This document shows, in pieces, positions 63 to 48,244 of a stretch of 58,832 bases of DNA; position 1 is the stretch's first letter; each line of letters begins with the position of its first letter. The stretch is from Phenylobacterium sp. (GTDB taxonomy: Bacteria; Pseudomonadota; Alphaproteobacteria; Caulobacterales; Caulobacteraceae). The stretch covers positions 1-58,832 of the forward strand of contig JAGOQB010000016.1 in the NCBI GenBank assembly GCA_017991675.1, given 5' to 3'. The notes below the pieces were generated by a model, which searched no databases, was not told the origin of the DNA, and saw nothing but the letters and a program-made list of their open reading frames with translations. The position numbers were made by a program, and so were the translations under genes.

Positions 63-122
63 ATCCAGTCTCCTTGCAGAGCCTGAATCAGATCGAGCAC
101 ATCACATCAATGGGTCCTGAGC
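1..122 (-). mobile_element. IS5-family insertion sequence, end fragment (continues beyond the left edge)
   Basis: The first about 122 bases look like the 5' end of an IS5-family element read leftwards. They hold an AAGGAG ribosome site, the transposase start, and a terminal stretch ending in GGGTCCTGAGCC just before CTAG at 123-126. The boundary falls exactly where the TonB receptor frame to the right ends, so the element appears to have inserted into that gene. The other end and the target duplication lie outside the window, so the boundary is inferred. Confidence 0.6.
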
Positions 123-1571
123 CTAGTAGTCGCCGGTCGCCTGGTAGCGAACCATGATCCCGCCGACGTTGAAATTGAACGGCCCGTCATAGGCCGACTG
201 CAGCCGCACTTCCTGGCTCCAGCCCTTGGTGTAGGCCGAGGAGATGTCGCTGGTCGTGAAGCGGTTGAAGGGCCTGTTCTGGGCGTCGTTGATCACGCCG
301 CCGGGGAACAGCGCCGCATAGATCGCCGCATAGCCGGGCACCGCGGCGAAGGCGTTCACCGGGTTGGGGCTGGTGTTGAAGCTGTTGCTGGGGACATAGC
401 GGTTGTAGTCCTGGCGCGTGTAGAGGTCGAAGTCCGTGTAGGACGTCAGCCAGGTCAGCCGCAGTTCGTCGGTCAGGTCCCAGTCGATGTTCAGCTGGTA
501 GATGTCGGTCGTCGATTGGTAGATCGGGTCGAAGGTCGACTCGATGTCCCGCACATTGGTCGTCTGCATCTTGCCGGCGTAGGCGTCGCCGGTCTGGAAG
601 CCGCCGAGCGCGCCGAACAGGCCCCCGAGGGTCCCCTGCGAGTTCACCGTCCCCAGCGAACCGGCCGAGTAGAGCGAGGTCGCCGAGCAGCCCTGGCTGA
701 ACAGGCCACGCTGGATCTGGCCGATCAGGCCGCCGGCCGCCGCCGAATAACCGAGCCCGCCGACGTTCGCCGGTCCGACGTCCTTGGTGCAGAACTGCTT
801 GCCGATCCGCGAGCGGTTGTCGTCCTCGTCGAAGTGGTCCCACAGGAAGTAGGCGTGGAAGGTGTCGGTCGGGTTGAACGCCAGGGTCGTGCGCGTGCCG
901 AACAGGTCGCGGTCGTCGGCGTCGTTGCCGGTCACCAGGTTGTCGCCGAAGCCGTCGCGCTTCAGCCACGAGCCGGCGACGCGCAGGGCGAACATGTCGC
1001 CGAGCGGCACGTTGATCATGCCGCGCAGCTTCATGGTGTTGTAGTTGCCGACCTCGCCGCGGATCATCGCCTCGAACTCGTCGATCGGCTTGGCGGTGAT
1101 CATGTTGACCACGCCGCCGGTGGCGTTGCGGCCGTAGAGGGTGCCTTGCGGCCCGCGCAGCACCTCGACCCGCTCGACGTCATAGAACTCGGTCTCGAAC
1201 AGGTTGTTCGAGAGCAGCGGCGCGTTGTTCAGGTGGATGCCGGTGCCGGCGTCGCCCGAGCCGGCGACCAGCTTGGAGCCGATGCCGCGGATCTGGAAGT
1301 TGTAGCCGGTGAAGTTCCCCTTCGAGAAGTTCACGTTCGGAACGGCGATGACCAGGTTCGGACCGCCGTCGATCTTGGCTTTCTCGAGGGTGTCCTGATT
1401 GAACGCCGACACCGCGATCGGCACGTCTTGCAGCGCCTCCTCGCGTTTCTGGGCGGTGACCACCAGTTCCTGAATGACGTTCTGGGACCAGGCCGGGGAC
1501 GCAACTGAACTCAACGCTACAGCGGACGCGCCAACGACCAGCGCGCTCCGCAAATGCAGAGTATTCAACAT
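123..1571 (-). pseudogene. TonB-dependent receptor, C-terminally truncated by an IS element
   Basis: The 482-residue product has a signal peptide (about residues 1-29), the ELVVTAQKREE...LQDVPI opening of one large TonB-receptor group (34-51), and a complete plug domain including VEVLRGPQGTLYGRNATGGVVN. It ends inside the beta-barrel after ...VRYQATGDY. Family members are usually 750-1000 residues and end in an aromatic residue, so roughly half the barrel is missing. The stop TAG lies in the CTAG where the left-edge IS begins: probably target TA plus the first G of the element. A half-barrel should not insert as a working transporter. The substrate is unknown. The lost 3' half may lie beyond the element. 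Confidence 0.8.
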
Positions 1572-1973
1572 TCCAGGTTCCTCCCAAGACGCCCACGGCT
1601 CTCTACAAACCGGCCTGGTGCGTCACCTTTCGCCGCTCGGAGAATTCGTCCTGGGTTGGCGGCCACACCCGCGACAAGGCAAAGGCTCGCGCCCAGTTGT
1701 GGAGTCTGTCAACGTGACGATGTTAAGTTATCGGCGATTACGTCGAAACTAACCAAGCTCTGTTGCTGAAATGCACAAGCCTCGACGTCTTTCAATTAAA
1801 AGTGGTTGAATCGCGCTGTCTTGGATGAATCTTGAGCATTTGCGGTATTCGTTGTGCTGCATGTGCGAAATCGTTGTTTCTGCGAGAGTTTCGGATTCAT
1901 CGGTATGGCGGGGGCGGCGGCGCGGCGATGCGCCGGGCTTCCGATTTGCGCCGTGCGCGCGCATATGGGGCCG
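1572..1973. other. Intergenic region between the TonB receptor and queC
   Basis: About 400 bases between divergent genes must hold the promoters for both. The middle (about 1690-1880) is visibly more AT-rich than the flanks. I see no convincing gene, tRNA or terminator. I looked for a preQ1 riboswitch in front of queC (a G/C hairpin followed by an A-rich tail and a pseudoknot) and did not find one I could support. Confidence 0.5.
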
Positions 1974-2705
1974 ATGAGCCAAGCTTCTCCGCAGTCCCGC
2001 GCCCTGGTCCTGTTCTCGGGCGGCCAGGATTCCAGCGTCTGCCTCGCCTGGGCGCTGGCCCGGCACGACCATGTCGAGACCGTCGGCTTCGACTACGGGC
2101 AGCGGCATGCAGTCGAAATGGAACAGCGTTCTGTGGTTCGCGAGGCGATCTGCGCCCGCTTCCCGCAATGGGCCGGCAAGCTGGGCGAGGATCACGTCCT
2201 CGACCTGACCGGCTTCGGCGCGGTCGGCGACACCGCCATGACTGAGGAGCGGGCCTTCGAGATCACCGAGAAGGGGCTGCCGAACACCTATGTTCCGGGC
2301 CGCAACCTCGTTTTCCTGACCTATGCGGCCGCTCTGGCCGATCGCCGTAAACTGAAATTTCTAGTGGGCGGCATGTGCGAGACCGACTTCTCCGGCTACC
2401 CGGATTGCCGGCGCGAGACGCTCGACGCCCTGGAGCGCGCCCTGAACCTCGGCATGGCCCAGGACTTCGTCGTCGAGACCCCGCTGATGTGGCTGACCAA
2501 GGCGCAGACCTGGGGGCTGGCGCAGCATCTGGGCGGCGAGGACTTGATCGAGATCATCGTCGACGACAGCCACACCTGTTACCGGGGAACCCGTGGCGAA
2601 CTCCACGACTGGGGGCATGGCTGCGGAGATTGCCCGGCCTGCGACCTGCGCGCCAAGGGGTGGAACGAGTGGGTCGCGGCCGGCCGACTGGAATTTGAAG
2701 CATGA
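1974..2705 (+). CDS. queC: 7-cyano-7-deazaguanine synthase QueC
   Basis: QueC converts 7-carboxy-7-deazaguanine plus ammonia and ATP to preQ0, the last step before QueF in queuosine synthesis; it is cytosolic. The 243-residue product carries the N-terminal PP-loop [12 protein letters not shown], the VPGRNLVFL segment, SGYPDCR, and the C-terminal zinc cluster (CY..., then [10 protein letters not shown]). The frame is open upstream to 1854, but homology starts near [17 protein letters not shown], so I chose ATG 1974; ATG 1965 is an alternative. Its stop overlaps the queE start (ATGA at 2702-2705), so the two are translationally coupled. Confidence 0.93.
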
Positions 2706-3334
2706 GCTACGCGGTCAAGGAGATCTTTCTGACCCTCCAGGGCGAGGGCGGCCAGGCTGGCCAACCGGCGGTGTTTTGCCGCTTTGCGGGATGCAACCTG
2801 TGGTCGGGCCGGGAGGAGGATCGCGCCAAGGCGGTCTGCACCTTCTGCGACACCGACTTTGTCGGCATGGACGGCGAGGGCGGGGGCCGCTTCGCCGGCG
2901 CCGAGGATCTGGCCGCGGCGGTCGAGGCGGCCTGGACCGGCGGGCCCGACCACCGGCTGGTGGTCTGCACCGGCGGCGAGCCGCTGCTCCAGGTGGACGG
3001 CCCGCTGATCGCGGCGCTGCACGCCCGCGGTTTCCGCATCGCGTTGGAAACCAACGGCACGCTGCCGGTTCCCGAAGGCGTCGACTGGATCTGCGTCAGC
3101 CCCAAGGCCGACGCCGAGGTCGTGCAGACGAGCGGCCAGGAACTGAAACTGGTCTTCCCCCAGCCGCTGGCCGATCCGGCGCGCTTCGAGCACATGGATT
3201 TCGAGCGGTTCCTGCTGCAGCCGATGGACGGTCCGGCGCGTGTCGAAAACACCGAAGCGGCGATCGCCTATTGCCTTGCGCACCCTCGGTGGCGTTTAAG
3301 CGTCCAAACTCATAAATATCTCGGCATTTCGTGA
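2702..3334 (+). CDS. queE: 7-carboxy-7-deazaguanine synthase QueE (radical SAM)
   Basis: QueE is a radical-SAM enzyme that contracts 6-carboxytetrahydropterin to 7-carboxy-7-deazaguanine. The 210-residue protein has [17 protein letters not shown] near the N-terminus and the family's unusual cluster spacing, C31-x14-C46-x2-C49, in place of CX3CX2C. It also has the TGGEPLLQ and ETNGT segments that bind SAM. It overlaps queC by four bases. Its TGA stop overlaps a GTG in the next frame, although queD more likely starts at 3379. Middle gene of queC-queE-queD. Confidence 0.95.
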
Positions 3335-3378
3335 CACGTGCGCCAAGTGCGGCCGGACGCCTCAAGACCCCCTCCCAG

Positions 3379-3766: not shown

Positions 3767-4538
3767 TCACCGCATCCAGATGATGGCGGCGGCGATATGG
3801 ATGAAGGCTAGGTAGTGGATAGCTAGGCGGTCGTAGCGGGTTGCGAAACGTCGGAAGTGTTTGAGCTTGTTGAAGCACCGCTCGATGCAGTTGCGCAGTT
3901 TGTAGATGAGCCGATCGTGCGGGATCGGCGCCTTGCGTGAGCGAGTGGACGGGATCACAGCCTGGGCGCCGATGCGGTCGAGGTGCTGGCGCAAGGTGTT
4001 GGCGTCGTAGGCCCGATCGGCCAGGACGGCGGACGGTCTTTGGCCTTCGAGCAAGGCCGGGACGGCGAGCATGTCGTGGCTCAGACCTGGAGCGATGAGG
4101 AAACGGACGGGTCGGCCCAGGCCGTCGCAGGCCATGTGAACCTTCGTCGTCAGTCCGCCTCGGGAGCGCCCCACGGCCGGATCGAGGCACCCCTTTTTGG
4201 GCCGGAGCCCCGACCGGTCGTCGCCTGCTGGTGCGCTCTGACCAAGATGGAATCGAGCATCAGGTACTGGTTGTCCCGGTCCTTGATCAGATCGTCGAAG
4301 ATCTGCTCCCATACCCCCGCCGCCGCCCAACGGCTGAAGCGCTTGTGCGCCGTCTTCCACTTGCCATAGCGCTCAGGAAGGTCTGACCAGTGCGCCCCTG
4401 ACCGAAGCACCCACAGCACCCCGTTCACGACAGCCGGTTGTCCGATCCCGTGCGGCCAGGATCGCCCACCTTGCCCGGAAGCAGCGGCGAGATCCGCGTC
4501 CACTGCGCGTCCGTCAGCTCGTATCGCTTCACGCCCAT
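3767..4538 (-). pseudogene. IS5-family transposase with programmed frameshift, inactivated by a 1-base deletion
   Basis: Translation from ATG 4538 gives [13 protein letters not shown]... and RTGSDNRLS, then a premature stop. One base appears to be missing near 4428-4431, because the next frame continues with [25 protein letters not shown]. That second stretch runs to about 4196, where an in-frame C CCA AAA heptamer allows a -1 shift into the third stretch. The third stretch carries RSRGGLTTK, ADRAYD and RNCIERCFNKLKHFRR, the DDE-domain signatures, to the stop at 3767. The -1 shift is normal for this IS group; the upstream deletion is not, so this copy should not make full-length transposase. 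Confidence 0.8.
4195..4201 (-). promoter_or_regulatory. Slippery heptamer for -1 frameshifting in the transposase
   Basis: On the minus strand the seven bases read C CCA AAA in the upstream frame, followed by AGGGG. This matches X XXY YYZ exactly, and a -1 slip joins the N-terminal half (ending ...GSGPK) to the DDE half (KKGCLDPAVGRSRGG). Two-ORF members of the IS5 family are known to use such shifts. Confidence 0.7.
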
Positions 4539-4806
4539 GCCATAGGTCCCCGCTCAACAGCGGAGACCTTTGAATCACGCATCAATGGCCGCGTGAATCC
4601 TGAATTGGACCTAGTCACCTTTCGCGTACGGACCCGTTAGGTGAAGACGTGCGGTGCCCTGGGGCGGCCGCGCCTTTTTCCTGCGGGCCCAATGCGGCGC
4701 GTAAAGTCGCGGCTACTGGGCGCATCAACGGTTTGCAAGTCGAGCGTTTTTCAGCTTTGTTCGCCGCCCTGCGCGAGTGGATTCCCTCGCCAAGTGGAGA
4801 CTTACC

Positions 4807-5040
4807 GTGACTTTCGAGGAACTTCGCCAGCTTATGGCGGACGTGTTTGAATGCGATCCGTCCAAAATCACTCTGGACGCGACGCCGGACACTTTGGAGG
4901 CGTGGGATTCGCTGCGTCTTCTCGATCTCATTCTTGCGGTCGAGCAGCGGGCCGGCATAGAGATTTCGCCCGATCGCCTGGAAAAAATGATGAGCGTCCC
5001 GGCGATTCTCGAGATCGTCAACGAAGCGCAAGCTGCTTGA
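4807..5040 (+). CDS. Free-standing acyl carrier protein
   Basis: This 77-residue protein is a phosphopantetheine carrier: EAWDSLRLLDLI contains the DSL attachment site with Ser35, followed by the recognition helix and an acidic C-terminal helix (VEQRAGIEI). GTG 4807 is chosen because GTGGAGA lies six bases upstream; the frame is open back to 4777 but without support. It is first in a five-gene operon, 20 bases before the methyltransferase, and is not the fatty-acid acpP, which normally lies in the fab cluster. Its probable job is to carry the group loaded by the FkbH-type enzyme encoded downstream. Confidence 0.85.
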   Translation: MTFEELRQLMADVFECDPSKITLDATPDTLEAWDSLRLLDLILAVEQRAGIEISPDRLEKMMSVPAILEIVNEAQAA

Positions 5041-5060
5041 GCGTCCCAGAGTTTTAGAAA

Positions 5061-5987
5061 ATGACCCCGACTGGCCATGAGCATCTCGATCGCGTTCTCG
5101 GTGACGCCCTGAAATCATGGCCGGAGCATGAGAAGTTTCTGACTGCTAGTCTCGCCGACTACGATGATGCTGATTTGGCTCAGCTGAACGATCTCGCGCG
5201 ACGTGTCTCGTTGCTGATGCGCGATGAAGCGGAAAGCTATTTTTCTAGTTATCGTTGGATGTGCGCGGAAATCAACAAAGAGACCTTTTATTTTAAGAAG
5301 CATGGGCGCTATCGTCTGGCGACTTTTGAAGAGGCCAATAGAGAAGTCTATTCCAACGCGCCCTTCATGAAAAAGTATGTTGAGGGCATTCTTGCGTCTC
5401 AGGTTCTGTGGAGGAACCACAGCGCAGCGTTCCTTTTCTTTCAGCGCGACTTTCTCGCCCGACTGAAGGCCGATTATCGCTACCTTGAAGTTGGCCCCGG
5501 TCACGGTCTGTTCCTCTCGACCGCGGCGGAAGATCCCAGTGCGAAGAGCGTGACGGCATGGGACGTCAGCGAGGAGAGCCTGCGACAAACGCGGGCCGCG
5601 CTCGCCACCATGGGTGTGCGCGATCGCGTTGAGCTTGACCGGCAAGACATCCACGCGCCGACCCGTCGTCCGGAAGATGGCGCACTATTCGACGGCATCG
5701 CGCTCTGCGAGGTGCTTGAGCATTTGGAACACCCTAAGGACGCGCTAGCCTCGCTGCGGGAGTTCTTGGCTCCGGACGGGCTTCTGTACATCAACGTTCC
5801 GCTCAACAGCCCGGCGCCGGACCACATCTTCCTCCTGCGGGACGAGGCGGAAGTCCGGGCGCTGATGCAAAGTGCTGGTCTTGAGGTCATTGAGCTCAAG
5901 CTTGTGCCGATGACGGGGTACGACCTGCCGACGGCTCAGCGGCAAGGGTTGACCGTCACCTGCTTCGTGTTGGCGCGCCGCGCCTGA
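5061..5987 (+). CDS. Class I SAM-dependent methyltransferase
   Basis: The 308-residue product has about 135 N-terminal residues of unknown function, rich in aromatic residues, then a Rossmann methyltransferase domain. Motif I is YLEVGPGHGLFL (glycines 144-149), the acidic second strand is VTAWDVS, and ALCEVLEHLEHP is the conserved post-II segment typical of small-molecule and ubiquinone/biotin-type methyltransferases. There is no signal peptide. In this operon it may methylate the ACP-bound group or the final product, as methyltransferases do in methoxymalonyl-ACP pathways. The 5' half is much poorer in G+C than its surroundings (52 of 120 bases at 5221-5340), a sign of transfer. Confidence 0.8.
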   Translation: MTPTGHEHLDRVLGDALKSWPEHEKFLTASLADYDDADLAQLNDLARRVSLLMRDEAESYFSSYRWMCAEINKETFYFKKHGRYRLATFEEANREVYSNAPFMKKYVEGILASQVLWRNHSAAFLFFQRDFLARLKADYRYLEVGPGHGLFLSTAAEDPSAKSVTAWDVSEESLRQTRAALATMGVRDRVELDRQDIHAPTRRPEDGALFDGIALCEVLEHLEHPKDALASLREFLAPDGLLYINVPLNSPAPDHIFLLRDEAEVRALMQSAGLEVIELKLVPMTGYDLPTAQRQGLTVTCFVLARRA

Positions 5988-5994
5988 GGTCGCG

Positions 5995-6765
5995 GTGACC
6001 ACTTTCAAGATTCGACGGGAGGAGACGAGGGACGGGCAAATCGCGCTCATCGCTCATCACACTGTCTTTGCCTCGAAGCGTCCCGTCGTGGTGATGATCC
6101 ACGGCGCTCTCCGCCACTTCAAGGTGCTGGCGCACTGGCACAGTCTGCTGGTCGAAGAAGCCGACGTCGTGTTCATCGAGTTGCCCGGTCACGGAAGGAG
6201 CACGCCGGTGCATCCGCCCAGCGTTGACTCCTTTGCGGTCAATATTCTCCAGGCGATCCAAAGCGCGCTGAGCGGCCGCGACGTCGTTGTGGTCGGCGAG
6301 TCTCTGGGCGGCCTCGTCGCGCTGGTCATGGCGGGCATGTCGCCGGCCCCGATCCGCGCGGTGCTCGCAGTCGATCCGCCGTTAACGACGGGCAAGTTAT
6401 GGCACGTCGCAGCTTCGTTGCTCAGAGCGATCGACCGTGACCCGGACGATCAGTACCTGCGGAGCTGGGTTAGCGCGATATTCGGTATGTCCCCTCATGG
6501 TCGCGGCGACCGAATCTACTATCCGGTGTTGAGTGGCGTGAGCATCCCGGCCCATATCGTGACGGGGGACTTGCCCTTGCTGCCGCCGCGAGTTGTTCGA
6601 GGCATTCCCTGCGTGCTGGACCGCGTGGATCGGTTCGTTATCGAAAACCTTTACGCGGACCAAATTCGTTTCCATGTGATCCAGGATTGCGGACATCTGC
6701 TGCTGGTTGATCAGACGGGGCCGTGCCTTGAATTGATCAGGCGAATCCAGAGCGGCCGCGCGTAG
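5995..6765 (+). CDS. Alpha/beta hydrolase (thioesterase- or acyltransferase-like)
   Basis: This 256-residue cytosolic alpha/beta-hydrolase-fold protein has the HGALRHF oxyanion loop, LPGHGRS, the nucleophile elbow VVGESLGG (Ser103) and a C-terminal His in DCGHLLLVD (His234). The acid is probably Asp in VTGDLP. It starts at GTG 5995 with GAGGT six bases upstream, seven bases after the methyltransferase stop. Next to an ACP and an FkbH-type enzyme, the likely roles are release of the acyl group from the carrier or its transfer to an acceptor. Neither can be decided from sequence. Confidence 0.8.
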   Translation: MTTFKIRREETRDGQIALIAHHTVFASKRPVVVMIHGALRHFKVLAHWHSLLVEEADVVFIELPGHGRSTPVHPPSVDSFAVNILQAIQSALSGRDVVVVGESLGGLVALVMAGMSPAPIRAVLAVDPPLTTGKLWHVAASLLRAIDRDPDDQYLRSWVSAIFGMSPHGRGDRIYYPVLSGVSIPAHIVTGDLPLLPPRVVRGIPCVLDRVDRFVIENLYADQIRFHVIQDCGHLLLVDQTGPCLELIRRIQSGRA

Positions 6766-6780
6766 GCGCAGTCAGAGAAG

Positions 6781-8691
6781 ATGATGACCAACGACGTTGT
6801 AGCGCCTGCCTCGAACCCCCGAGAGATCATTGAGCGTCTGATCGCGGCGGGGGAGCACGTCGAGGCTCTGGCCGCCGCGCGATCGTACTGGCGCGCTGGG
6901 CCGGAAGCGTCGGTGGCGAGGTTTCTGAAGTCCCGCATCGAGCAGTGCTGGCCACGCGGCGAGTTTCAGACGAATCGCCTGGCCATTCTTCGCTCATTCA
7001 CGCTGGAGCCGGTCATCCCGTTCCTGCAGGTTGAGGCGGCTCTCGGCGGACGCCGTGTCGAGACGTGGATCGGCGAGTACGGCGCGTATGGCCAGGAGAT
7101 CCTGGATCCGACCAGCGGTCTGTACGCGTTCGGACCCGACACTATCATCGTCGCCGTGCAGACGCGCGACGTCTCGCCCGCGCTCTGGAGCGAGTTCTCA
7201 GACCTGTCGGATGGTGACGTCGAGGAGGAAGTCGATGCCGCGGCCGGCACCATGATCCAATTGCTTAGCCGTCTTAGGGCCAGCGTCAACGCCAACATCA
7301 TCGTTCATGGGTTGGAGCGGCCGCTTTTCGCATCGGAAGGCCTGCTGGGCCTGCGGCGTAAGGTCGGGCAGGCCGCTGCGATCGAGGCGGTGAGCCAGCG
7401 TTTGCGCCAGTGGACGGCGTGCGTCCAGAACGCGCATTTTCTCGACTACGACGACCTTCAGGCCCGTCACGGGCGTGAGCGCTTCGTCGACGAGAAGAAG
7501 TGGGCGACGGCGAAGTTGCCGCTCAGTGTTCACGCGCTGGGCTGGCTTGCGGCGGAATGGTGGCGCCATCTCGCCATCCTGTCCTTGCCCCCGGCAAAGG
7601 TGCTGGTCCTGGATCTCGACAATACGCTGTGGGGCGGTGTCGTCGGTGAGGACGGCATCGCGGGCGTCAAGCTGGGCGATGAGTATCCGGGGGGCTTCTA
7701 CAAGCGTTTCCAACGCGCGATCTGTGATGTCGCTCGTAGGGGGGTCCTTCTAGCGATCGCCAGCAAGAACAATCGGGCAGATGCGTTGCAGGTCATCGAC
7801 GAACATCCCGACATGCTGCTTCGCAGCGACCAGTTCGCGGCGATGCGGATCGATTGGCAGCCCAAGGCGGCCAACATCGTTGCGATGGCTGAGGAGCTGA
7901 ACCTCGGAATCGACAGCTTCATCTTCGTCGATGATAATCCCGCGGAGTGCGAGGCGGTGCGGCGCGCGCTGCCACAGGTCGAAGTGATCGAGTTGCCTGC
8001 CGATCCCTCTGTATACGCCAATCTGTTGCGCCAATCGCCGCGGCTCGAGCGCCTGTCGATATCCGCTGAAGACGCGGATCGGGGCCGATACTACGCGGTT
8101 GAACGCCAGCGCCGCCAATCGCTCGAGGTCGCTGAAAGCCTGGACGGCTTTCTGCATTCGCTGAGGATCGAGGTCAATGTGGCGCCGATTGACGCCATGA
8201 GCATCGGCAGGGCTGCGCAGCTGACCCAAAAGACCAACCAGCTCAACATGACCACCCGCCGCTATGGCGAGGTGCAACTGGACGCCCGGCTCAAAGAGCC
8301 TGGGTGGGCCGGCTACACCCTGCGCGCAGCCGACCGCTTCGGAGACAATGGAATTGTGGGTGTCGCGTTGGTTCAGACTCGGAATGGCGTCTGCGAGATC
8401 GATACGTTCTTGATGAGTTGCCGGGTGATCGGTCGCCAGATCGAGACGGCGTTCCTAACTGCGTTGTCCGAGATCGGCCGACAGGAGGGCGCGCGCGAGC
8501 TGCGCGGCTGGTTCATTCCAACGGCGAAGAACGCCCCTGCTGCCGGCATTTATGCCCAAGCCGGACTCGAGGTCTGCGAGACCCGGGACGGGGCGGAATG
8601 CTGGCGGATCGACTTGCTGCGTGCTCCAACCACCCCTGCTTGGATCGCCCTGCGCATGCCGGCGCTGACCGCAGGCGAGGAAGGCCTATGA
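6781..8691 (+). CDS. FkbH-like HAD-family glyceryl-ACP synthase
   Basis: The 636-residue protein has the three-part FkbH layout: an N-terminal domain (about 1-265), a HAD phosphatase IIIC domain starting VLVLDLDNTLWGGVVGEDG (nucleophile Asp278, Asp280) with LLAIASKN and FVDDNPAE, and a GNAT-like C-terminal domain (about 450-630) with TQKTNQLNMTTRR. Known FkbH enzymes take 1,3-bisphosphoglycerate, remove a phosphate and load the glyceryl group on the phosphopantetheine of a discrete ACP, as for methoxymalonyl and tetronate units. An ACP and a methyltransferase lie in the same operon, but no polyketide synthase. The start is ATG 6781 or 6784. The stop overlaps the next start (ATGA). Confidence 0.88.
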   Translation: MMTNDVVAPASNPREIIERLIAAGEHVEALAAARSYWRAGPEASVARFLKSRIEQCWPRGEFQTNRLAILRSFTLEPVIPFLQVEAALGGRRVETWIGEYGAYGQEILDPTSGLYAFGPDTIIVAVQTRDVSPALWSEFSDLSDGDVEEEVDAAAGTMIQLLSRLRASVNANIIVHGLERPLFASEGLLGLRRKVGQAAAIEAVSQRLRQWTACVQNAHFLDYDDLQARHGRERFVDEKKWATAKLPLSVHALGWLAAEWWRHLAILSLPPAKVLVLDLDNTLWGGVVGEDGIAGVKLGDEYPGGFYKRFQRAICDVARRGVLLAIASKNNRADALQVIDEHPDMLLRSDQFAAMRIDWQPKAANIVAMAEELNLGIDSFIFVDDNPAECEAVRRALPQVEVIELPADPSVYANLLRQSPRLERLSISAEDADRGRYYAVERQRRQSLEVAESLDGFLHSLRIEVNVAPIDAMSIGRAAQLTQKTNQLNMTTRRYGEVQLDARLKEPGWAGYTLRAADRFGDNGIVGVALVQTRNGVCEIDTFLMSCRVIGRQIETAFLTALSEIGRQEGARELRGWFIPTAKNAPAAGIYAQAGLEVCETRDGAECWRIDLLRAPTTPAWIALRMPALTAGEEGL

Positions 8692-10274
8692 GCTTCATTT
8701 CCGCATCGGTCCCGCTGGCGAGCTATCGCCGTGGGAACACTGACGAGGCCATCGAGATTGCGGGCAAGGTGCTCGCTCTGGATCCGAACGCAGCCGAGGC
8801 GCATCTGTGTCTGGGGTTGATCGCCTTCCGGAAGGGCGAGGCCGCCGCCGCCATGGACGCCTTTCGAAAGTGCACCGTGTCGCGTTCCGGCGAGTGGGTG
8901 CTGGAGCGCGTACGGGACGACTTCGCGCGCTGGGGCATTCCGGCCATGGGCCGCGATATCGCCATGCGCTTTGGCGGCTTTCTCCGTTCGAATCTCTCGC
9001 CGCTGGGTCCAGTCCTGCCGTCCGATTTGCGCCGCGCCGATCATTCGTACGTGAACGTCGTCGGGACCAGCTACGTCCGAAGCTTTGGAGGCAATCCAGC
9101 CTTCTTTCCGCTGTTCATCGGCATGGGGCCAACCATGCTGCTGCTTACCGAGGAAACCGCCGCGGTATCGCGGCGTAAGTTCCACGAGAACCTCAAACGG
9201 CTCGATCCGGCGCGGGACACCGTGTTGGTACTGAACGGCGACACCTACTATCACGCGACGAATTTGCTGAAGATCCGCACGTCGGATAGTCCCCACGCCA
9301 CGGCGGACGACCTCGCGCTGATGGACAGCGTTGCTCAACGCCATGAACCCATACTGCTGGATGCGCGCAAGCAGATCACCGGCCGCGTGATGCTGCTCGG
9401 GGCCACGCCGTCGTACAGTCCGCTCATGGATCAGCTCTCCGCCCACTTGAATCAGCGCCTGAAGGCGGTCTGCGAGCGGGTCGGCGTCGACTTTCTGGAC
9501 TGGTGGGATCATCTGGCCGATCCCGTGACGCAGCATCTTCATGCCAAGCACAGCGCCAATGCGTACCCGGGAGACGTGCATTTCTCGTTGGCGACCACCG
9601 AACTGTTCATGTCGCTGCTGAAAGACGACGGCGTTTTCGGTCCCGACATTGTCCCGTCCTACGACTTCGATTGGACGCACGTCTTCGAATGCGAGATCGA
9701 CAAGAGCGAGCGCACCCGGATTTGGTGCGAACCCGGCGTCACGCCGAACAACGCCTTCAAGTCCAACAAGATCGCCTCGTCGCACCTCGGCCAGCGGGCC
9801 GCGGATCTGCTCTGCTGCCTGGCGGCCCAGAAGGCCGAACAGACTTTCGCCATGGTGAACGTCCGGGACGGCCATACGCCGATCTCTCTGCCGCCGCAGG
9901 TTCATTCCGGATGTGTGGCGCTGACGGACTCCCTGCCGAACCGGCGTGTCGCTCAGATGGTCCTCGACTTCTACGGTCGGGCCGACGTTCAGCTCCGGCT
10001 GTGCGACGATGAGGCCTTAGCCGACTTGACGGGTGCAGCCTTCACCTACTTGATTCTGATTATTCACCCGGACACCGCCTCAGACGATGAGCATCGCTGC
10101 AACGAAGTGCTGGCGCGGATTGGTCCGTGCCCGAACGTCATTATCATGACGCCGCTGCCCGAGCGGCTCGCCCAGCTCCGGCTGAACGGACGCAGCGTCG
10201 CGACTCAGATCGCGATCTCAAACCGCCACGTTCCCGAAGTGTGGCATCAGTATACAGTCGCGATCGCCCGCTGA
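8688..10274 (+). CDS. TPR plus SGNH-hydrolase-like protein of the FkbH operon
   Basis: This 528-residue protein starts at ATG 8688, overlapping the fkbH-like stop by four bases. Residues about 10-60 form one or two TPR-like helical hairpins (AIEIAGKVLALDPNAAEAHLCLGLIAFRKG). Residues 120-310 resemble an SGNH/GSCFA-type hydrolase: VVGTSYVRSF (Ser128 as nucleophile), LNGDTYYH (Gly/Asn block, 182-188), and GDVHFS (Asp296, His298), one residue shorter than the usual DxxH. The last about 190 residues match nothing I recognise. No signal peptide is visible. SGNH proteins often move or remove O-acyl groups on glycans, so this is a candidate for the final transfer step. The function is inference. Confidence 0.65.
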   Translation: MSFISASVPLASYRRGNTDEAIEIAGKVLALDPNAAEAHLCLGLIAFRKGEAAAAMDAFRKCTVSRSGEWVLERVRDDFARWGIPAMGRDIAMRFGGFLRSNLSPLGPVLPSDLRRADHSYVNVVGTSYVRSFGGNPAFFPLFIGMGPTMLLLTEETAAVSRRKFHENLKRLDPARDTVLVLNGDTYYHATNLLKIRTSDSPHATADDLALMDSVAQRHEPILLDARKQITGRVMLLGATPSYSPLMDQLSAHLNQRLKAVCERVGVDFLDWWDHLADPVTQHLHAKHSANAYPGDVHFSLATTELFMSLLKDDGVFGPDIVPSYDFDWTHVFECEIDKSERTRIWCEPGVTPNNAFKSNKIASSHLGQRAADLLCCLAAQKAEQTFAMVNVRDGHTPISLPPQVHSGCVALTDSLPNRRVAQMVLDFYGRADVQLRLCDDEALADLTGAAFTYLILIIHPDTASDDEHRCNEVLARIGPCPNVIIMTPLPERLAQLRLNGRSVATQIAISNRHVPEVWHQYTVAIAR

Positions 10275-42446: not shown

Positions 42447-43595
42447 ATGCGAAAGTTTCTCGCGCCGTTCGTCGCAACGGCCGCCGCTGCATTGGTTCTG
42501 GCCGGATGCGGCAAGCCTGAAGGCCCCCCGCAGATGCCGGCGCCGGAAGTTTCCGTCGCCACGCCGCTGCGGCAATCGGTCGTCGATTGGGACGATTTCA
42601 CCGGCCGCTTCGAAGCGCCCGAGCGCGTCGATGTGCGCGCCCGCACCAGCGGTTACCTGCAGGCCACGCATTTCCGCGAAGGCCAGTTCGTCAAGAAGGG
42701 CCAGCTGCTGTTCACGCTGGACCCGCGTCCGGCCGAAGCCCAGCTCGCCGCCGCTCGCGCCCAGGCCAAGCTGGCCGCGGCCGACCTCGCCCGCGCCGAG
42801 ACCCTGCTGAAAGTCCAGGCCATCAGCCGCGAGGAGTACGACAACAAGCGCGCCGCCAGCGAAGTCGCCCAGGCGACGGTTCAGGCCCGCGCGCTTGATC
42901 TGGAGTTCACCCGCGTCACGGCCCCGACCTCGGGGGTCGTCTCGGATCGCCGCGTCGATCCGGGCAATGTGATTTCCGGCGGCGGGGCCGGCGCTGACGT
43001 GCTGACCACCATCGTCTCCACCACGCCGATCCACTTCCTGTTCGATGCTTCCGAGGCGCAACTGCTCAAGGACCAGCGCGCGACCGGCAAGGGCGGCAAG
43101 GTGCAGATCCGCCTGCAGGACGAGTCCGACTATCGTTGGACCGGCCAGATCGACTTCACCGACAACAGCATCGACGGCGCGTCCGGGGCGATCCGCATGC
43201 GCGCCGTGGTCCCGAACCCGAACGGCTTCCTGAAGCCCGGGATGTTCGGCAAGGCCAAGGTCGAGGGCGGCCAGGCCTATGACGCGCTGCTGGTGCCGGA
43301 AGCCGCCATCGTCGCCGACGGCGCCCGCAAGGCGGTCAATGTCGTCGCGGCCGACGGTTCGGTGACCCTGAAGCCGGTCGAGCTTGGCCCGACCACCCAG
43401 GGCCTGCGGGTCATCCGCAGCGGCGTGAAGCCGGACGACAAGGTCATCGTGAACGGCGGCGTGCGTCTGATGGGGCCGGGCATGAAGGTCAAGGCGAAGG
43501 TCGTGACCATCGAACCCAAGAAGGCCGCCGCGCAGGCTGCGTCCACCGTCACCATTCCCGTGGCCTCGAGCGCCACCCCGGCCGGCGCCCGCTAA
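42447..43595 (+). CDS. RND efflux periplasmic adaptor lipoprotein
   Basis: The 382-residue membrane-fusion protein of the AcrA/MexA type has a lipobox LVLAGC (Cys21), a lipoyl half-motif (VRARTSGYLQATHFREGQFVKKGQLLFTLD), a helical hairpin (about 90-150) and the second lipoyl half with LEFTRVTAPTSGVVSDRRVDPGNVI. The C-terminal beta barrel carries LPEAAIVADG-like elements. First gene of a three-gene pump operon, 24 bases before the transporter gene. Confidence 0.93.
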   Translation: MRKFLAPFVATAAAALVLAGCGKPEGPPQMPAPEVSVATPLRQSVVDWDDFTGRFEAPERVDVRARTSGYLQATHFREGQFVKKGQLLFTLDPRPAEAQLAAARAQAKLAAADLARAETLLKVQAISREEYDNKRAASEVAQATVQARALDLEFTRVTAPTSGVVSDRRVDPGNVISGGGAGADVLTTIVSTTPIHFLFDASEAQLLKDQRATGKGGKVQIRLQDESDYRWTGQIDFTDNSIDGASGAIRMRAVVPNPNGFLKPGMFGKAKVEGGQAYDALLVPEAAIVADGARKAVNVVAADGSVTLKPVELGPTTQGLRVIRSGVKPDDKVIVNGGVRLMGPGMKVKAKVVTIEPKKAAAQAASTVTIPVASSATPAGAR

Positions 43596-43619
43596 GGGCC
43601 CGACCCAGGAACGGAATCC

Positions 43620-46600
43620 ATGCGTTTCTCGCACTTCTTCATCGACCGCCCGATCTTCGCGGGCGTGCTGTCGGTGTTCATCGCCCTGATCGGGGCGTTC
43701 GCGCTGCCGCTGCTGCCGCTGTCGCAGTATCCGGACATCGCGCCGCCGACCATCGCGGTCACCGCCACCTATCCTGGCGCCTCGGCCGAAACCCTCGCCG
43801 AGACCGTCGCTGCGCCTATTGAGCAAGAGATCAACGGCGTCGAGGGCATGCTCTACATGACCTCGTCGTCGACCGCCGACGGCATGGCGACGATCTCAGT
43901 GACGTTCGAACCCGGCACCGATCTCGACGCCGCACAGGTGCTTGTCCAGAACCGCGTCGCGCTCGCCACGCCGCGCCTGCCCGAGCAGGTGCGCCAGGTG
44001 GGCGTCACCGTGAACAAGCAGCTCTCAGGCTTCCTGCTGCTGGTCGCCCTAACCTCGGACGATCCAAACGCCGACCTCGACCACATCGGCAACTTCGCGA
44101 ACTCCACGGTCCGCGACCGCATGCTGCGCATCAAGGGCGTCGGCGGCGTGCAGGTGTTCGGCGGCGGCTTCTATTCGATGCGGGTCTGGATCGACCCGGG
44201 CAAGGCCTCGGCGCGCAACCTGACCTCGGACGAGATCGTGGCGGCGCTGCGGGCCCAGAACGTCCAGGCCGCGGGCGGCGCCCTCGGCCAAGCCCCGAAC
44301 GACACCGGCGCGGCCTTCCAGCTGCCGGTGCAGGTCCAGGGCCGACTGGCCGATCCCGAAGAGTTCGCCAACATCGTCATCCGCACGGACGCCGACGGCC
44401 GCGTGACCCGCGTGCGCGACATCGGCCGCGTCGAGCTGGGCGCCCAGGACTACGGGATGCGCGGCTACTTCGACGGCAAGCGCGGCATCGGCCTGGCGAT
44501 CATCCAGCAGCCGGGCGCCAACGCCCTGTCGACCGCCGCCGAAGTCATGAAGGCGGTCGAGGAACTGAAGCCGTCCATGCCGCAAGGCGTGAGCTATTCG
44601 ATCCCCTACAACCCGACCGAATTCGTCGAAGCGTCCGTCGCTTCGGTGCAGAGCACCCTGTTCGAAGCGGTGATCCTCGTGGTCGTCGTGATCATGGTGT
44701 TCCTGCAGACCTGGCGCGCGGCGATCATCCCAATCCTGGCGATCCCTGTGGCGCTGGTCGGCACCTTCGCGGTGCAACTCGCGCTCGGCTACTCGCTGAA
44801 CTCGCTGTCGCTGTTCGCCCTCGTGCTCGCGGTCGGGATCGTCGTCGACGACGCCATCGTCGTGGTCGAGGCGGTGGAGCGCAACATACGCCGGGGCATG
44901 ACGCCAAGGGAGGCGGCCTACAGGACGATGGACGAAGTGTCCGGCGCCCTGATCGCCATCGGCCTGGTGCTGCTGGCCGTGTTCGTGCCGACCGCCTTCA
45001 TGCCGGGCATCCCGGGGATGTTCTTCCGCCAGTTCGCGGTGACCATCTCGGCCGCCTCGGTGATCTCGCTGATCACCTCGCTGACCCTGTCGCCGGCCCT
45101 GGCCGCCATCCTGCTCAAGCCGCACGTCGAGCACTCGCTCGACACCGGTCCGCGCTGGCTGCGTCCGATCAAGATGGCCGGTCACAAGTTCAACAGCGGC
45201 TTCGACTGGCTGAGCGACAAGTACGGCGCCCTGACCGCGCGTCTGGTGCGCGCCAGCATGATCGTGCTGGTGGTCTATGCCGGCCTGATCCTGATGACCG
45301 GCTGGCGTCTGACCGCCACCCCGACCGGCTTCATTCCGCAGCAGGACCAGGGCTTCCTGATCGGCGTCGTCCAACTTCCGCCGGGCGCCTCGCTCGAGCG
45401 CACCGACGCGGTGGTCCGCCAGGCCAGCGCCATCGTCCAGGACACCCCCGGCGTCCAGGGCGTGTCGGCCTTCGCCGGTCTGGACGGGGCCAGCTTCTCG
45501 GCCATGTCCAACGGCGGCGTGTTCTTCGTGAAGCTCGACGACTGGTCCAAGCGCGGCAAGGAGCTGAGCGCCGACGTCATGGCCGGCCAGGTCATGGGTC
45601 GCCTGTCGGGCATCCAGGAAGCCAACATCTTCTTCCTGGCGCCTCCGCCCGTCGAGGGCATGGGCAACGCCGGCGGCTTCAAGATGATGGTCCAGGACCG
45701 CTCGGGCGCCGGCTACGCTGCGCTGGAGCAGGCCGCCAACGGCCTGGTCGGCGCCGCCGCGCAGAGCCCGGAGAGCACGGTCGGGGTCTTCTCGCAGTTC
45801 AACACCGGCTCGCCCCGGGTGACCGCCGAGATCGACCGCGACAAGGCCCTGCTGATGGGCGTGCAGCCTGGCGCCGTCTACGACGCCATGAGCACCTATC
45901 TCGGCTCGACCTACGTCAACGACTTCAACCTGCTCGGCCGCACCTTCCGGGTGACCGCTCAGGCGGAGTCCGACGCGCGGGACGATCCGTCCGACATCGC
46001 CGGCATCAAGGTCCGTTCGGCGTCGGGCGGCATGGTGCCGCTGGGCTCGCTGGCCACGGTGAAGGACGAGACCGGCCCGGTCCGCGTGGTGCGCTACAAC
46101 CTCTTCCCGGCCGCCGAAGTGCAGGGCGGGGCGCCTCCGGGCGTAGCCTCGGGTGATGCGCTCAAGGCGATGGAGGAGCACGCGGCCAAGGTGCTGCCGG
46201 CCGGCTTCAGCTACGAGTGGACGGAACTGGCCTACCAGGAGAAGGCGGCCGGCAACTCCGGCGTCCTGATCTTCGCCCTGGCGGTGGTGTTCGTGTTCCT
46301 GGTGCTGGCCGCCCAGTACGAGGCCTTCACCCTGCCGCTGGCGGTCATCCTGATCGTGCCGATGTGTATCCTCGCGGCCATCCTGGGCGTGAACCTGCGG
46401 GGCCAGGACAACAACATCCTGACCCAGATCGGCCTGATCGTGCTGGTCGCCCTGGCGGCCAAGAACGCGATCCTCATCGTCGAATTCGCCAAGCAGGCGG
46501 AAGAAGACGAGGGGGCCGACCGGTTCGAAGCGGCCATCAAGGCGGCCCGGACCCGTCTGCGGCCGATCCTAATGACCTCCTTCGCCTTCATCCTGGGCGT

Positions 46601-46844
46601 GCTGCCGCTGGCGATCGCCACGGGACCGGGGGCGGAGATGCGTCAGGCGCTGGGCACGGCGGTGTTCTTCGGGATGCTGGGCGTGACCGTCTTCGGCCTG
46701 ATCTTCACGCCGGTCTTCTACGTGCTCTGCCGCTGGATCGCCGCGCGCCTTCCGAAGGCCAAGGGCAAGGAAGAGAAGATCTATCCGACCACCGGGGGCG
46801 GCACGCCGCACCACCCGCTCGAGTATGAAGGAGGCGCGAAGTGA
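43620..46844 (+). CDS. RND efflux transporter, HAE1/AcrB family
   Basis: This 1074-residue inner-membrane drug/proton antiporter opens with FFIDRPIFAGVLSVFIALIGAFAL and TIAVTATYPGASAE, and has the proton-relay pair in VGIVVDDAIVVVEAVERN. The mid-loop GFIPQQDQGFLIGVVQLPPGAS, the C-terminal NAILIVEFAKQ and RLRPILMTSFAFILGVLPLAIATGPGAEMRQALG complete the AcrB pattern with 12 predicted spans and two periplasmic loops. GTGA couples it to the outer-membrane factor gene. Substrates are probably broad hydrophobic compounds. Confidence 0.95.
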   Translation: MRFSHFFIDRPIFAGVLSVFIALIGAFALPLLPLSQYPDIAPPTIAVTATYPGASAETLAETVAAPIEQEINGVEGMLYMTSSSTADGMATISVTFEPGTDLDAAQVLVQNRVALATPRLPEQVRQVGVTVNKQLSGFLLLVALTSDDPNADLDHIGNFANSTVRDRMLRIKGVGGVQVFGGGFYSMRVWIDPGKASARNLTSDEIVAALRAQNVQAAGGALGQAPNDTGAAFQLPVQVQGRLADPEEFANIVIRTDADGRVTRVRDIGRVELGAQDYGMRGYFDGKRGIGLAIIQQPGANALSTAAEVMKAVEELKPSMPQGVSYSIPYNPTEFVEASVASVQSTLFEAVILVVVVIMVFLQTWRAAIIPILAIPVALVGTFAVQLALGYSLNSLSLFALVLAVGIVVDDAIVVVEAVERNIRRGMTPREAAYRTMDEVSGALIAIGLVLLAVFVPTAFMPGIPGMFFRQFAVTISAASVISLITSLTLSPALAAILLKPHVEHSLDTGPRWLRPIKMAGHKFNSGFDWLSDKYGALTARLVRASMIVLVVYAGLILMTGWRLTATPTGFIPQQDQGFLIGVVQLPPGASLERTDAVVRQASAIVQDTPGVQGVSAFAGLDGASFSAMSNGGVFFVKLDDWSKRGKELSADVMAGQVMGRLSGIQEANIFFLAPPPVEGMGNAGGFKMMVQDRSGAGYAALEQAANGLVGAAAQSPESTVGVFSQFNTGSPRVTAEIDRDKALLMGVQPGAVYDAMSTYLGSTYVNDFNLLGRTFRVTAQAESDARDDPSDIAGIKVRSASGGMVPLGSLATVKDETGPVRVVRYNLFPAAEVQGGAPPGVASGDALKAMEEHAAKVLPAGFSYEWTELAYQEKAAGNSGVLIFALAVVFVFLVLAAQYEAFTLPLAVILIVPMCILAAILGVNLRGQDNNILTQIGLIVLVALAAKNAILIVEFAKQAEEDEGADRFEAAIKAARTRLRPILMTSFAFILGVLPLAIATGPGAEMRQALGTAVFFGMLGVTVFGLIFTPVFYVLCRWIAARLPKAKGKEEKIYPTTGGGTPHHPLEYEGGAK

Positions 46845-48244
46845 TCCGCCTTAAGCTGATCCCTGCGCTGCTGGGCGCCACGGCGCTGACCGCCTGCGCC
46901 GCCGGACCGAACTACCAGGTCCCGGCGCCGGTCGTCTCCGGGCAGGGAGCCTTCGTGTCGGCCGAGCCGACGGTCGCGGTCGCCGAGGCTCCGCCCGGCG
47001 ACTGGTGGCGGCTGTTCCAGGACCCGGCCCTCGATGGTCTGGTCCAGGAGGCCCTGGTCGCCAACAAGGACGTGGCCGTCGCCGCGGCGAACCTGTCGCG
47101 GGTGCGGGCGGTGCTGAGCGAGACCCGTTCGGGCCTGCTGCCTTCGACCACGATCTCGGCGTCGGGCCAGCGGGTCCGCGGCCAGGACGTGGTCACAGGC
47201 CAGTTCGACGACGGCGACCAGTACCGGGCCGGCTTCGACATGTCCTACGAGGTCGATCTGTTCGGCCGGGTGCGCCGCAGCCTGGAGGCCAATCGCGCCG
47301 ACGTGGGCGCCGCGCAGGCGGCGCTGGACGTGGTGCGGGTCTCGGTGGCCGCCGAGACCGCCCGCGCCTATGCCGACATCTGCGCCGCCAACGCCCAGAT
47401 CGCGGTGACCAGGCGGACCATCGAGCTGCAGCAGAACACCTACGACCTGACGGTGCGCCAGCTCGAGGCCGGCCGTGGGACCGCAGCCGACACCTCGGCG
47501 GCGGCGACCCAGCTGGAGACCTCGAAGGCGGCCTTGCCGTCGCTCGACGCCCAGCGGTCGGCGGCGCTGTTCCGGCTCGCCCTGCTGACCGGCAAGACGC
47601 CGGCCGAGGCGCCGCAGGCGGTGCTGAGCTGCCAGGCGACGCCGCAGGTGGCTCAGGCGATCCCGGTCGGCGACGGGGCGGGCATGCTCGCCCGGCGTCC
47701 GGACGTGCGCCAGGCCGAGCGCGACCTGGCGGCGGCGACCGCGCGGATCGGGGTGGCGACGGCTTCGCTCTATCCGACGGTGACCATCGGCGGCGGCATC
47801 GCCACCACGGGCGCGCGGACGGGCGATCTCGGCGACGACTACACCTTCAATGTCGGACCGCTGATCAACTGGAGCTTCCCGAACATCCTGGCCGCCCGCG
47901 CCCGGGTGAAGCAGGCCGGGGCCGGGGCGGAAGCGGCGCTGGCCACCTTCGAGAAGGTCAACCTGACCGCCTTGCAGGAGACCGAGACGGCGCTGACCCA
48001 GTACGCCCGGGAGCTTGATCGCCGCGCCGCGCTCAAGCGCGCGCGCGACGAAGGCGCCAAGGCCGCGCGGCTCGCTCGGCTGCGCAACGAAGCCGGCGCC
48101 GACAGCCTGCTGGCCGTCTTGGTGGCCGAGCGGCAGCTGGCCTCGCTGGAGGCGCAGCTGGCCCAGTCCGACGCCCAAGTGACCACCAACCAGATCGCCC
48201 TGTTCAAGGCGCTGGGCGGCGGCTGGGAATCCGCCGGCGACTAA
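46841..48244 (+). CDS. RND efflux outer-membrane factor (NodT/OprM type)
   Basis: This 467-residue TolC-family lipoprotein starts at GTG 46841, overlapping the transporter stop. The lipobox is TALTAC, followed by AGPNYQVPAP, the standard NodT-type opening, then PGDWWRLFQDPALDGLVQEAL. Two internal repeats of long amphipathic helices (including GMLARRPDVRQAERDLAAATARIGVATASLYPTVTIGG) form the trimeric tunnel. Completes a full tripartite pump operon. Confidence 0.94.
   Translation: MIRLKLIPALLGATALTACAAGPNYQVPAPVVSGQGAFVSAEPTVAVAEAPPGDWWRLFQDPALDGLVQEALVANKDVAVAAANLSRVRAVLSETRSGLLPSTTISASGQRVRGQDVVTGQFDDGDQYRAGFDMSYEVDLFGRVRRSLEANRADVGAAQAALDVVRVSVAAETARAYADICAANAQIAVTRRTIELQQNTYDLTVRQLEAGRGTAADTSAAATQLETSKAALPSLDAQRSAALFRLALLTGKTPAEAPQAVLSCQATPQVAQAIPVGDGAGMLARRPDVRQAERDLAAATARIGVATASLYPTVTIGGGIATTGARTGDLGDDYTFNVGPLINWSFPNILAARARVKQAGAGAEAALATFEKVNLTALQETETALTQYARELDRRAALKRARDEGAKAARLARLRNEAGADSLLAVLVAERQLASLEAQLAQSDAQVTTNQIALFKALGGGWESAGD

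Follow-up and report, generated by a model that had tools for sequence, protein, structure and literature searches.

The 58,832-nucleotide stretch of Phenylobacterium sp. DNA analysed here (the window; contig C19 of a 3.03 Mb source genome that is 70.68% complete) carries at 4807–10274 a five-gene operon in which a free acyl carrier protein (ACP) is encoded together with an FkbH-type enzyme and a last protein with tetratricopeptide-repeat (TPR) and SGNH regions (TPR-SGNH). The FkbH/ACP cassette is real and co-inherited: these three genes lie side by side in all eight loci at which the cassette was found among 101 genomes of the genus. It is described below by its gene content, conserved order, folds, catalytic-type residues and co-inheritance. 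The reading that we favour, to which we give an even chance of being right as a whole, is that of a self-contained, mobile-looking cassette for glycerate-derived acyl groups that would serve a cytosolic acceptor, most likely a surface sugar.

Conservation of the five-gene set

All five genes are on the forward strand. The ACP gene (4807–5040, GTG start, 77 residues) is followed by genes for an S-adenosylmethionine (SAM) methyltransferase (MT; 5061–5987, 308 residues), an alpha/beta hydrolase (ABH; 5995–6765, GTG start, 256 residues), FkbH (6781–8691, 636 residues) and TPR-SGNH (8688–10274, 528 residues). In the list of open reading frames (ORFs) the genes are separated successively by 20, 7 and 15 bases and the last two overlap by 4 bases. 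A preliminary description, made from the sequence of the window, had proposed a tight five-gene operon; the ORFs and spacings match it exactly, and Pfam and NCBIfam agree with its labels.

The eight cassette genomes are G000, G088, G190, G214, G218, G249, G257 and G260. A profile of the last protein gave matches in ten of the 101 genus genomes, two restricted to the TPR region and eight extending beyond it. An order-wide draw of 398 genomes, which lacked some of the eight, contained 14 matches, and only those in G000 and G088 reached beyond the TPR region. A scan of a named-genome collection returned five loci, four with whole-protein matches and one, from Acidobacteria, with a match confined to the TPR region. 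As judged from these profile matches, the last protein is confined to the genus Phenylobacterium within the data searched and is patchily distributed.

The MT gene is present in six of the eight cassette loci (the window, L035, L036, L085, L086 and L087), as is the ABH gene (the window, L035, L085, L087, where it occurs twice, L088 and L089). ABH is placed inside the operon in three loci and nearby on the opposite strand in three, and its absence from L086 is not certain because that locus starts at a contig end. The co-occurrence search proposed with the preliminary description thus found the set to be conserved together. The TPR-SGNH gene is truncated by the end of the contig in L089 and split over two frames in L088, where both ABH and SGNH are broken. 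In L089 (6846–9830) FkbH and TPR-SGNH form one open frame of 995 codons reaching the contig end, either a natural fusion or the product of a missed stop in a draft assembly; this single frame suggests that TPR-SGNH works with FkbH. A MaoC-SDR fusion gene is convergent to the cassette in three of the eight loci (L035, L085 and L087), and the search for such a partner in the source genome gave short dehydrogenase-type matches only. In L087 (4116–5690) a tandem pair of ABH relatives precedes the converging MaoC-SDR gene.

The source genome holds a second, degraded copy that the preliminary description missed. It lies on the reverse strand of contig C10 (L034, about 120–3356) and consists of an ACP piece, FkbH and TPR-SGNH; the pieces, 39–63% identical, have frame breaks in many places, and neither MT nor ABH was matched beside them.

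The MT and ABH families were also followed beyond the cassette. When at most 11 first-look candidates were scored per genome, 11 of the 199 family genomes had an MT relative (E up to 1e-20), and three of these relatives belong to cassettes of the same kind. All 11 lie within 10.4 kb of an FkbH gene and nine within 1.4 kb, a linkage that fits methylation of the FkbH product by MT. Relatives of ABH (E up to 1e-30) occur in eight of the 101 genus genomes, six of which are cassette carriers (Fisher p = 6e-7, uncorrected for kinship). The other two, G223 and G231, have an ABH relative and no cassette gene in the stretches fetched (18 and 6.2 kb, respectively) and speak against an obligatory link between ABH and the cassette.

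The last protein and its partners

The last protein is built from three regions. Its N-terminal part matches TPR_16 at the cut-off (32.7 bits), the Pfam TPR being limited to residues 11–63. An SGNH/GDSL domain follows (9009–9692, forward strand) with invariant S128 (9069–9071), D296 (9573–9575) and H298 (9579–9581). In the eight aligned TPR-SGNH sequences the invariant Ser lies near the N-terminal strand and the invariant His near the C-terminus of the domain. The SGNH-like domain named in the preliminary description is weak by sequence (GDSL_2 18.9 bits, cut-off 32.9) and is supported by its fold and by GDSL_2 matches (E up to 0.1) to all eight homologues. The domain was folded separately because methyltransferases filled the whole-protein fold search; modelled alone, it matches GDSL esterases, including sialate O-acetylesterase, and the peptidoglycan O-acetyltransferase PatB.

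Structure prediction, which the preliminary description had put forward as a check, gave the SGNH fold and in addition a C-terminal methyltransferase-like domain that had been overlooked (whole-protein pLDDT, the predicted local distance difference test, of 77.8). This domain, about 200 residues (9675–10274, forward strand), matches the class I methyltransferase fold. Class I SAM methyltransferases usually have a glycine-rich motif I (GxGxG). At the corresponding place the seven aligned sequences have NVR followed by D or E, and no GxG. Kinship by sequence with the MT gene product was rejected (hhalign probability 0.3%), and a sequence comparison with the PDB gave chance-level matches only, beta-amylases first. 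No signal sequence is evident by eye in the last protein, and transfer by it would therefore be cytosolic rather than at the surface.

The other four proteins have the features expected from their labels. The ACP matches the PP-binding family PF00550 (29 bits, cut-off 20.8), and W33-D34-S35-L36 around its DSL motif is invariant across seven aligned ACPs (Ser35 codon at 4909–4911); it is 81 and 78% identical to its two closest relatives. MT scores above the Pfam cut-offs for Methyltransf_23, Methyltransf_12 and Methyltransf_11, consistent with a class I SAM methyltransferase, and has a SAM-motif-like LEVGPGHGLFL at about 5484–5516. ABH matches Abhydrolase_6 (PF12697, 59 bits); in an alignment of six sequences, in which its relatives are 36–46% identical to the window protein, S103 within GESxGG and H234 are invariant and D192, D209 and D212 are the candidate acids. 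FkbH scores 306.9 bits against TIGR01686 (cut-off 146.65), and its residues 73–419 match PDB entry 3slr (E = 9.5e-42). In seven aligned FkbH sequences the HAD motif DLDNT (residues 278–282, about 7612–7626) and Cys547 (8419–8421) are invariant, the latter being the conserved Cys of the C-terminal part that marks the family. For four of the five cassette proteins the two closest relatives are 51–81% identical. An anti-phage role was rejected, as PADLOC gave a single match only (the SAM part of mads_2 to MT), and so was a phage origin, the PHROGs matches being generic (ACP, methyltransferase and esterase).

Proposed route and alternative readings

In the following route each reaction is inferred, as are the position of the methyl group, the direction in which SGNH works and the nature of the acceptor. 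FkbH would take glycerate from 1,3-bisphosphoglycerate, its HAD domain would remove the phosphate and D-glyceryl would be loaded on the dedicated ACP; judged by sequence, loading of glyceryl on this ACP is very probable. The FkbH-linked SAM methyltransferase would O-methylate the ACP-bound glyceryl, and we hold it probable, though with less assurance, that MT acts on glyceryl-ACP. TPR-SGNH, acting with FkbH, would take the group off the ACP and attach it to a hydroxyl or amine on an acceptor in the cytosol, transfer and hydrolysis by this putative enzyme being evenly balanced in our estimate. The acceptor would most likely be a nonulosonic-type or other surface sugar, modified before export; for a sugar as acceptor the case stands about level. 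ABH may edit or release the ACP-bound group, or assist its transfer. The preliminary description had proposed hand-over to a surface glycan or lipid. From that claim we retain the surface sugar as the favoured acceptor, but with no signal sequence on the last protein the transfer itself would take place in the cytosol.

The absence of other enzymes around the cassette bears on this route. No type I polyketide synthase (PKS) marker (PF16197) scores above the cut-off in the source genome, in agreement with the earlier statement that no PKS is present; one match of 22.2 bits lies below the cut-off, and a PKS may have been missed because the genome is only 70.68% complete. No MBOAT was found in the source genome. 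Within stretches of 7.7–20 kb, MBOAT is present at none of the eight cassette loci compared with nine of 17 other Caulobacteraceae FkbH loci, a non-random set of the best-scoring others in which all nine were confirmed by Pfam, and three of seven plasmid loci. With no MBOAT around the cassettes, another, probably soluble, transferase would therefore have to act. In a tree of 32 FkbH sequences, midpoint-rooted for drawing only, all eight cassette members group together (100/100), with the 12 MBOAT-linked members on the other side; the nearest row outside the cassette group is that of Maritalea (L101; 99/95). Going further than the route itself, we suggest tentatively, and with more doubt than confidence, that the TPR-SGNH-methyltransferase-like protein may represent a new class of soluble ACP-dependent acyltransferase, paired with FkbH and transferring O-methylglyceryl to a cytosolic sugar or protein in place of MBOAT/AlgX, with the methyltransferase-like domain repurposed for acceptor or carrier binding and the whole spreading as a portable decoration cassette.

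The glycan acceptor named in the preliminary description finds support near two cassette copies and at one kin locus, but not at the other seven cassette loci. About 6–13 kb from the broken C10 copy is a glycosyltransferase/GHMP kinase/ABC-2 cluster (L034 9267–16000) with a methyltransferase, a GHMP kinase, a group 1 glycosyltransferase, a WbsX/family 2 glycosyltransferase and an ABC-2 permease, the last just under the cut-off (24.1 bits). In L085 a family 2 glycosyltransferase and an ABC-2 permease lie within 3–5 kb of the cassette genes. The kin locus L046 brings FkbH, ACP, MT, MBOAT and MaoC-SDR together with a nonulosonic-acid/capsule cluster (NeuB, UDP-GlcNAc 2-epimerase, DegT aminotransferase, Polysacc_synt_2 and Capsule_synth). 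Elsewhere the neighbours differ. A TPR-sulfotransferase, a second sulfotransferase and two Asp/Asn beta-hydroxylase-type proteins are encoded a few kilobases upstream of the L086 cassette (L086 7532–11677), an Acyl_transf_3 protein is among the neighbours in L088 and the two proteins just upstream of the L089 cassette have no Pfam match. Among the neighbours viewed at L035, L036, L087, L089 and the window, no glycan gene was recognisable.

Other kin loci place FkbH in further settings. Niveispirillum has an FkbH-ACP-WcbI-MaoC/SDR arrangement. On a Paroceanicella plasmid (L097 8483–18048) ACP-FkbH-MT, with an MT 41% identical, precedes MprF and a lysyl-phosphatidylglycerol hydrolase of AcvB/VirJ type, which for that organism hints at a connection with lipids. 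In L052 FkbH/ACP occur with AMP-binding, KAS III and TPR-GT41 proteins, and the related L053 has a large autotransporter at the corresponding place; these are possible autotransporter glycosylation loci. A Maritalea plasmid (L101 8257–14778) has FkbH beside a MaoC-SDR-like gene (with a GWDS stretch), pseB, a NeuB-type synthase and a DUF4910 gene. Cj1295 of Campylobacter belongs to the aminopeptidase-like DUF4910 family. The Maritalea arrangement resembles an alphaproteobacterial version of the Campylobacter di-O-methylglyceroyl toolkit. The DUF4910 gene was met only in the Maritalea record, the source genome not having been searched for it.

Several observations weigh against the proposed route. 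The substrate of MT might be something other than glyceryl-ACP, and two of the eight cassettes are without MT and two without ABH. At seven of the eight loci no glycan gene was recognised among the neighbours viewed (in part by Pfam, in part by eye), and no fixed kind of glycan gene adjoins the cassettes. The kinship with the Maritalea FkbH depends on a long branch, and the Methylosinus FkbH serves a PKS cluster. For the last protein, the region around Ser128 is modelled with low confidence and the SGNH fold matches are mostly esterases. Canonical SGNH enzymes have DxxH in block V and an Asn in block III. In the eight-sequence alignment a D-x-H (D296 and H298) replaces DxxH, and the candidate block III site has D185 in place of an invariant Asn, so SGNH activity is not certain; transfer cannot be told from hydrolysis at the level of sequence.

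The variable surroundings, together with the lack of a recognised glycan gene at seven of the eight loci, would suit a cassette whose released product is small and diffusible (a methylated glycerate ester or amide, for instance), ABH and SGNH acting as releasing or condensing enzymes and no glycan being involved. The presence of two hydrolase-fold proteins, the MaoC-SDR gene at three of the eight loci and the use of FkbH/ACP pairs in natural-product pathways point the same way. We nevertheless regard this as unlikely: among the conserved members of the set we saw neither a condensing enzyme nor an adenylation domain nor an exporter, MT and MaoC-SDR genes of the same families occur in a nonulosonic/capsule cluster and glycan genes lie near two cassette copies.

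The preponderance of esterases among the best SGNH matches, and the hydrolase fold of ABH with its conserved triad-like set, would be expected if both proteins were erasers (deacylase/thioesterase) and the cassette tuned or protected the carrier pool without decorating any acceptor. The joint FkbH and SGNH frame of L089 and the strict co-inheritance with the loading enzyme suit use of the product over its destruction, and the eraser role appears a little less likely again than release of a small molecule.

The TPR region raises a further alternative, in which it binds a protein such as flagellin and SGNH acylates that protein, or its attached sugar, directly. The TPR part of FlmG binds flagellin in Caulobacter crescentus (PMC7591256), and the last protein appears by eye to be cytosolic. 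Flagellin genes are present in 98 of the 101 genus genomes, which accords with this alternative but makes flagellin uninformative as a co-occurrence marker. Against it stand the short extent of the Pfam TPR match and the nearest other TPR regions in the source genome, which, in a comparison that did not include FlmG, are two weak matches besides the C10 copy, to an adenylate-cyclase-type ORF and one unrelated ORF. Direct acylation of a protein is slightly less probable than the eraser role.

Genomic surroundings and relation to known systems

Just upstream of the operon, on the reverse strand, is an IS4/5-type transposase in two overlapping frames (3767–4578; DDE_Tnp_1 and DUF4096). This insertion sequence (IS) has one further match within the genome (74% identical) and is a neighbour that stands outside the proposed mechanism; no inverted repeats of at least 12 bases were found around it. 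The upstream flank, by Pfam, also holds queE/queD-like genes, and the downstream flank, by eye, holds small lipoprotein-like, response-regulator-like and aroC-like ORFs. A scan for promoters and terminators gave sites no more numerous than in shuffled sequence. At 42447–48244 of the window a three-gene RND-type efflux set (adaptor, pump and outer-membrane factor) was seen by eye.

The low G+C content (GC) of about 43% noted earlier at 5221–5340 is confirmed (43.3%, rank 7 from the bottom among 5,872 windows of 120 bases); equally low windows also occur near 1691–1781. The GC at third codon positions (GC3) of the operon genes is 0.65–0.79; the median over the remaining called genes of more than 150 residues is 0.907. 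Cassette genes elsewhere range from 0.43 (ACP of L086) up to 0.90 (ACP of L036 and SGNH of L087), so low GC3 in the window is not a property of the cassette. The recent transfer suggested in the preliminary description is plausible given the low GC3, the adjacent IS and the patchy distribution, but its date is not established; acquisition and relaxed decay are both possible sources of the low GC3. That the cassette is a decaying remnant, functionless now in this strain, would accord with the low GC3, the adjacent IS, the badly broken C10 copy and the breaks in L088, but is very improbable, since none of the five frames in the window is broken, catalytic-type residues are retained and the two closest relatives are 51–81% identical for four of the proteins, with 36–46% for the ABH relatives.

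FkbH proteins are known chiefly for their part in polyketide synthesis, but glycan-type genes accompany FkbH at several of the alphaproteobacterial loci described here. Formation of glyceryl-ACP by FkbH enzymes is reported in published pathways (PMC7489565), and further background was drawn from passages of PMC3958885, PMC4104973 and PMC4875605. Among the titles and openings of abstracts listed by the literature searches, mostly of non-subscription papers, none dealt with this cassette. The cassette is a variant of known FkbH/ACP decoration chemistry with a new transferase candidate, of which no description was found. It is also the most compact self-contained case that we met, with carrier, loader, methylase and candidate soluble transferase in 5.5 kb. 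If the proposal is correct, it would offer an easily reconstituted system for how an ACP-bound glycerate group reaches a sugar, and a new protein architecture would join the known routes of acyl decoration.

Two polyketide-associated systems share the early part of the proposed route. The methoxymalonyl-ACP pathway (FK520-type; FkbH, ACP, two dehydrogenases and an O-methyltransferase) resembles the cassette in that a single operon encodes FkbH, a SAM methyltransferase and a free ACP. The cassette is without the two dehydrogenases and the PKS, and adds TPR-SGNH and the alpha/beta hydrolase; no dehydrogenases oxidizing glyceryl-ACP were found in the operon or adjoining genes, the part of the genome that was searched. 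The tetronate 'glycerate-utilization operon' (FkbH, ACP, a FabH-like enzyme, an acyltransferase and a dehydratase) shares the FkbH and ACP that provide a glyceryl-ACP pool. It differs in its other downstream enzymes and in having a FabH-like enzyme and a PKS; by Pfam and NCBIfam no FabH-like (KAS III) protein is among the five operon genes.

Methylated glycerate is the point of likeness with two further systems. In the suomilide/varlaxin (aeruginosin) loading module (O-methyltransferase, FkbH and carrier), FkbH and the methyltransferase 'probably' give methylated glycerate (PMC10143770). An O-methylglyceryl group on a carrier would be common to both, but that module belongs to a non-ribosomal peptide synthetase, whereas the proteins of the cassette are free-standing and include a soluble SGNH partner. 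Campylobacter jejuni flagellin carries 2,3-di-O-methylglyceroyl pseudaminic acid in a Cj1295-dependent manner, and the passages available leave the step from glycerate to sugar as a hypothesis (PMC3068675). The same organism has an fkbH-domain gene, cj1302 (PMC7099621), so that in both cases an FkbH-domain gene is present, in C. jejuni within the flagellin locus that makes an O-methylated glyceroyl sugar. Genes for nonulosonic acid and for flagellin lie adjacent in C. jejuni; the passages available mention no TPR-SGNH protein and do not establish a role for cj1302 in the di-O-methylglyceroyl modification.

A further comparison is with the alphaproteobacterial ACP/FkbH/MBOAT sets (for example L040, L042, L044, L046, L100 and L103), which share FkbH and ACP with the cassette and sometimes the MT family; in L042 and L044 an AlgX-like SGNH protein, recognized by Pfam, accompanies MBOAT. 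These sets use a membrane MBOAT, whereas the cassette has the soluble TPR-SGNH-methyltransferase-like protein, and the FkbH groups of the two are separate.

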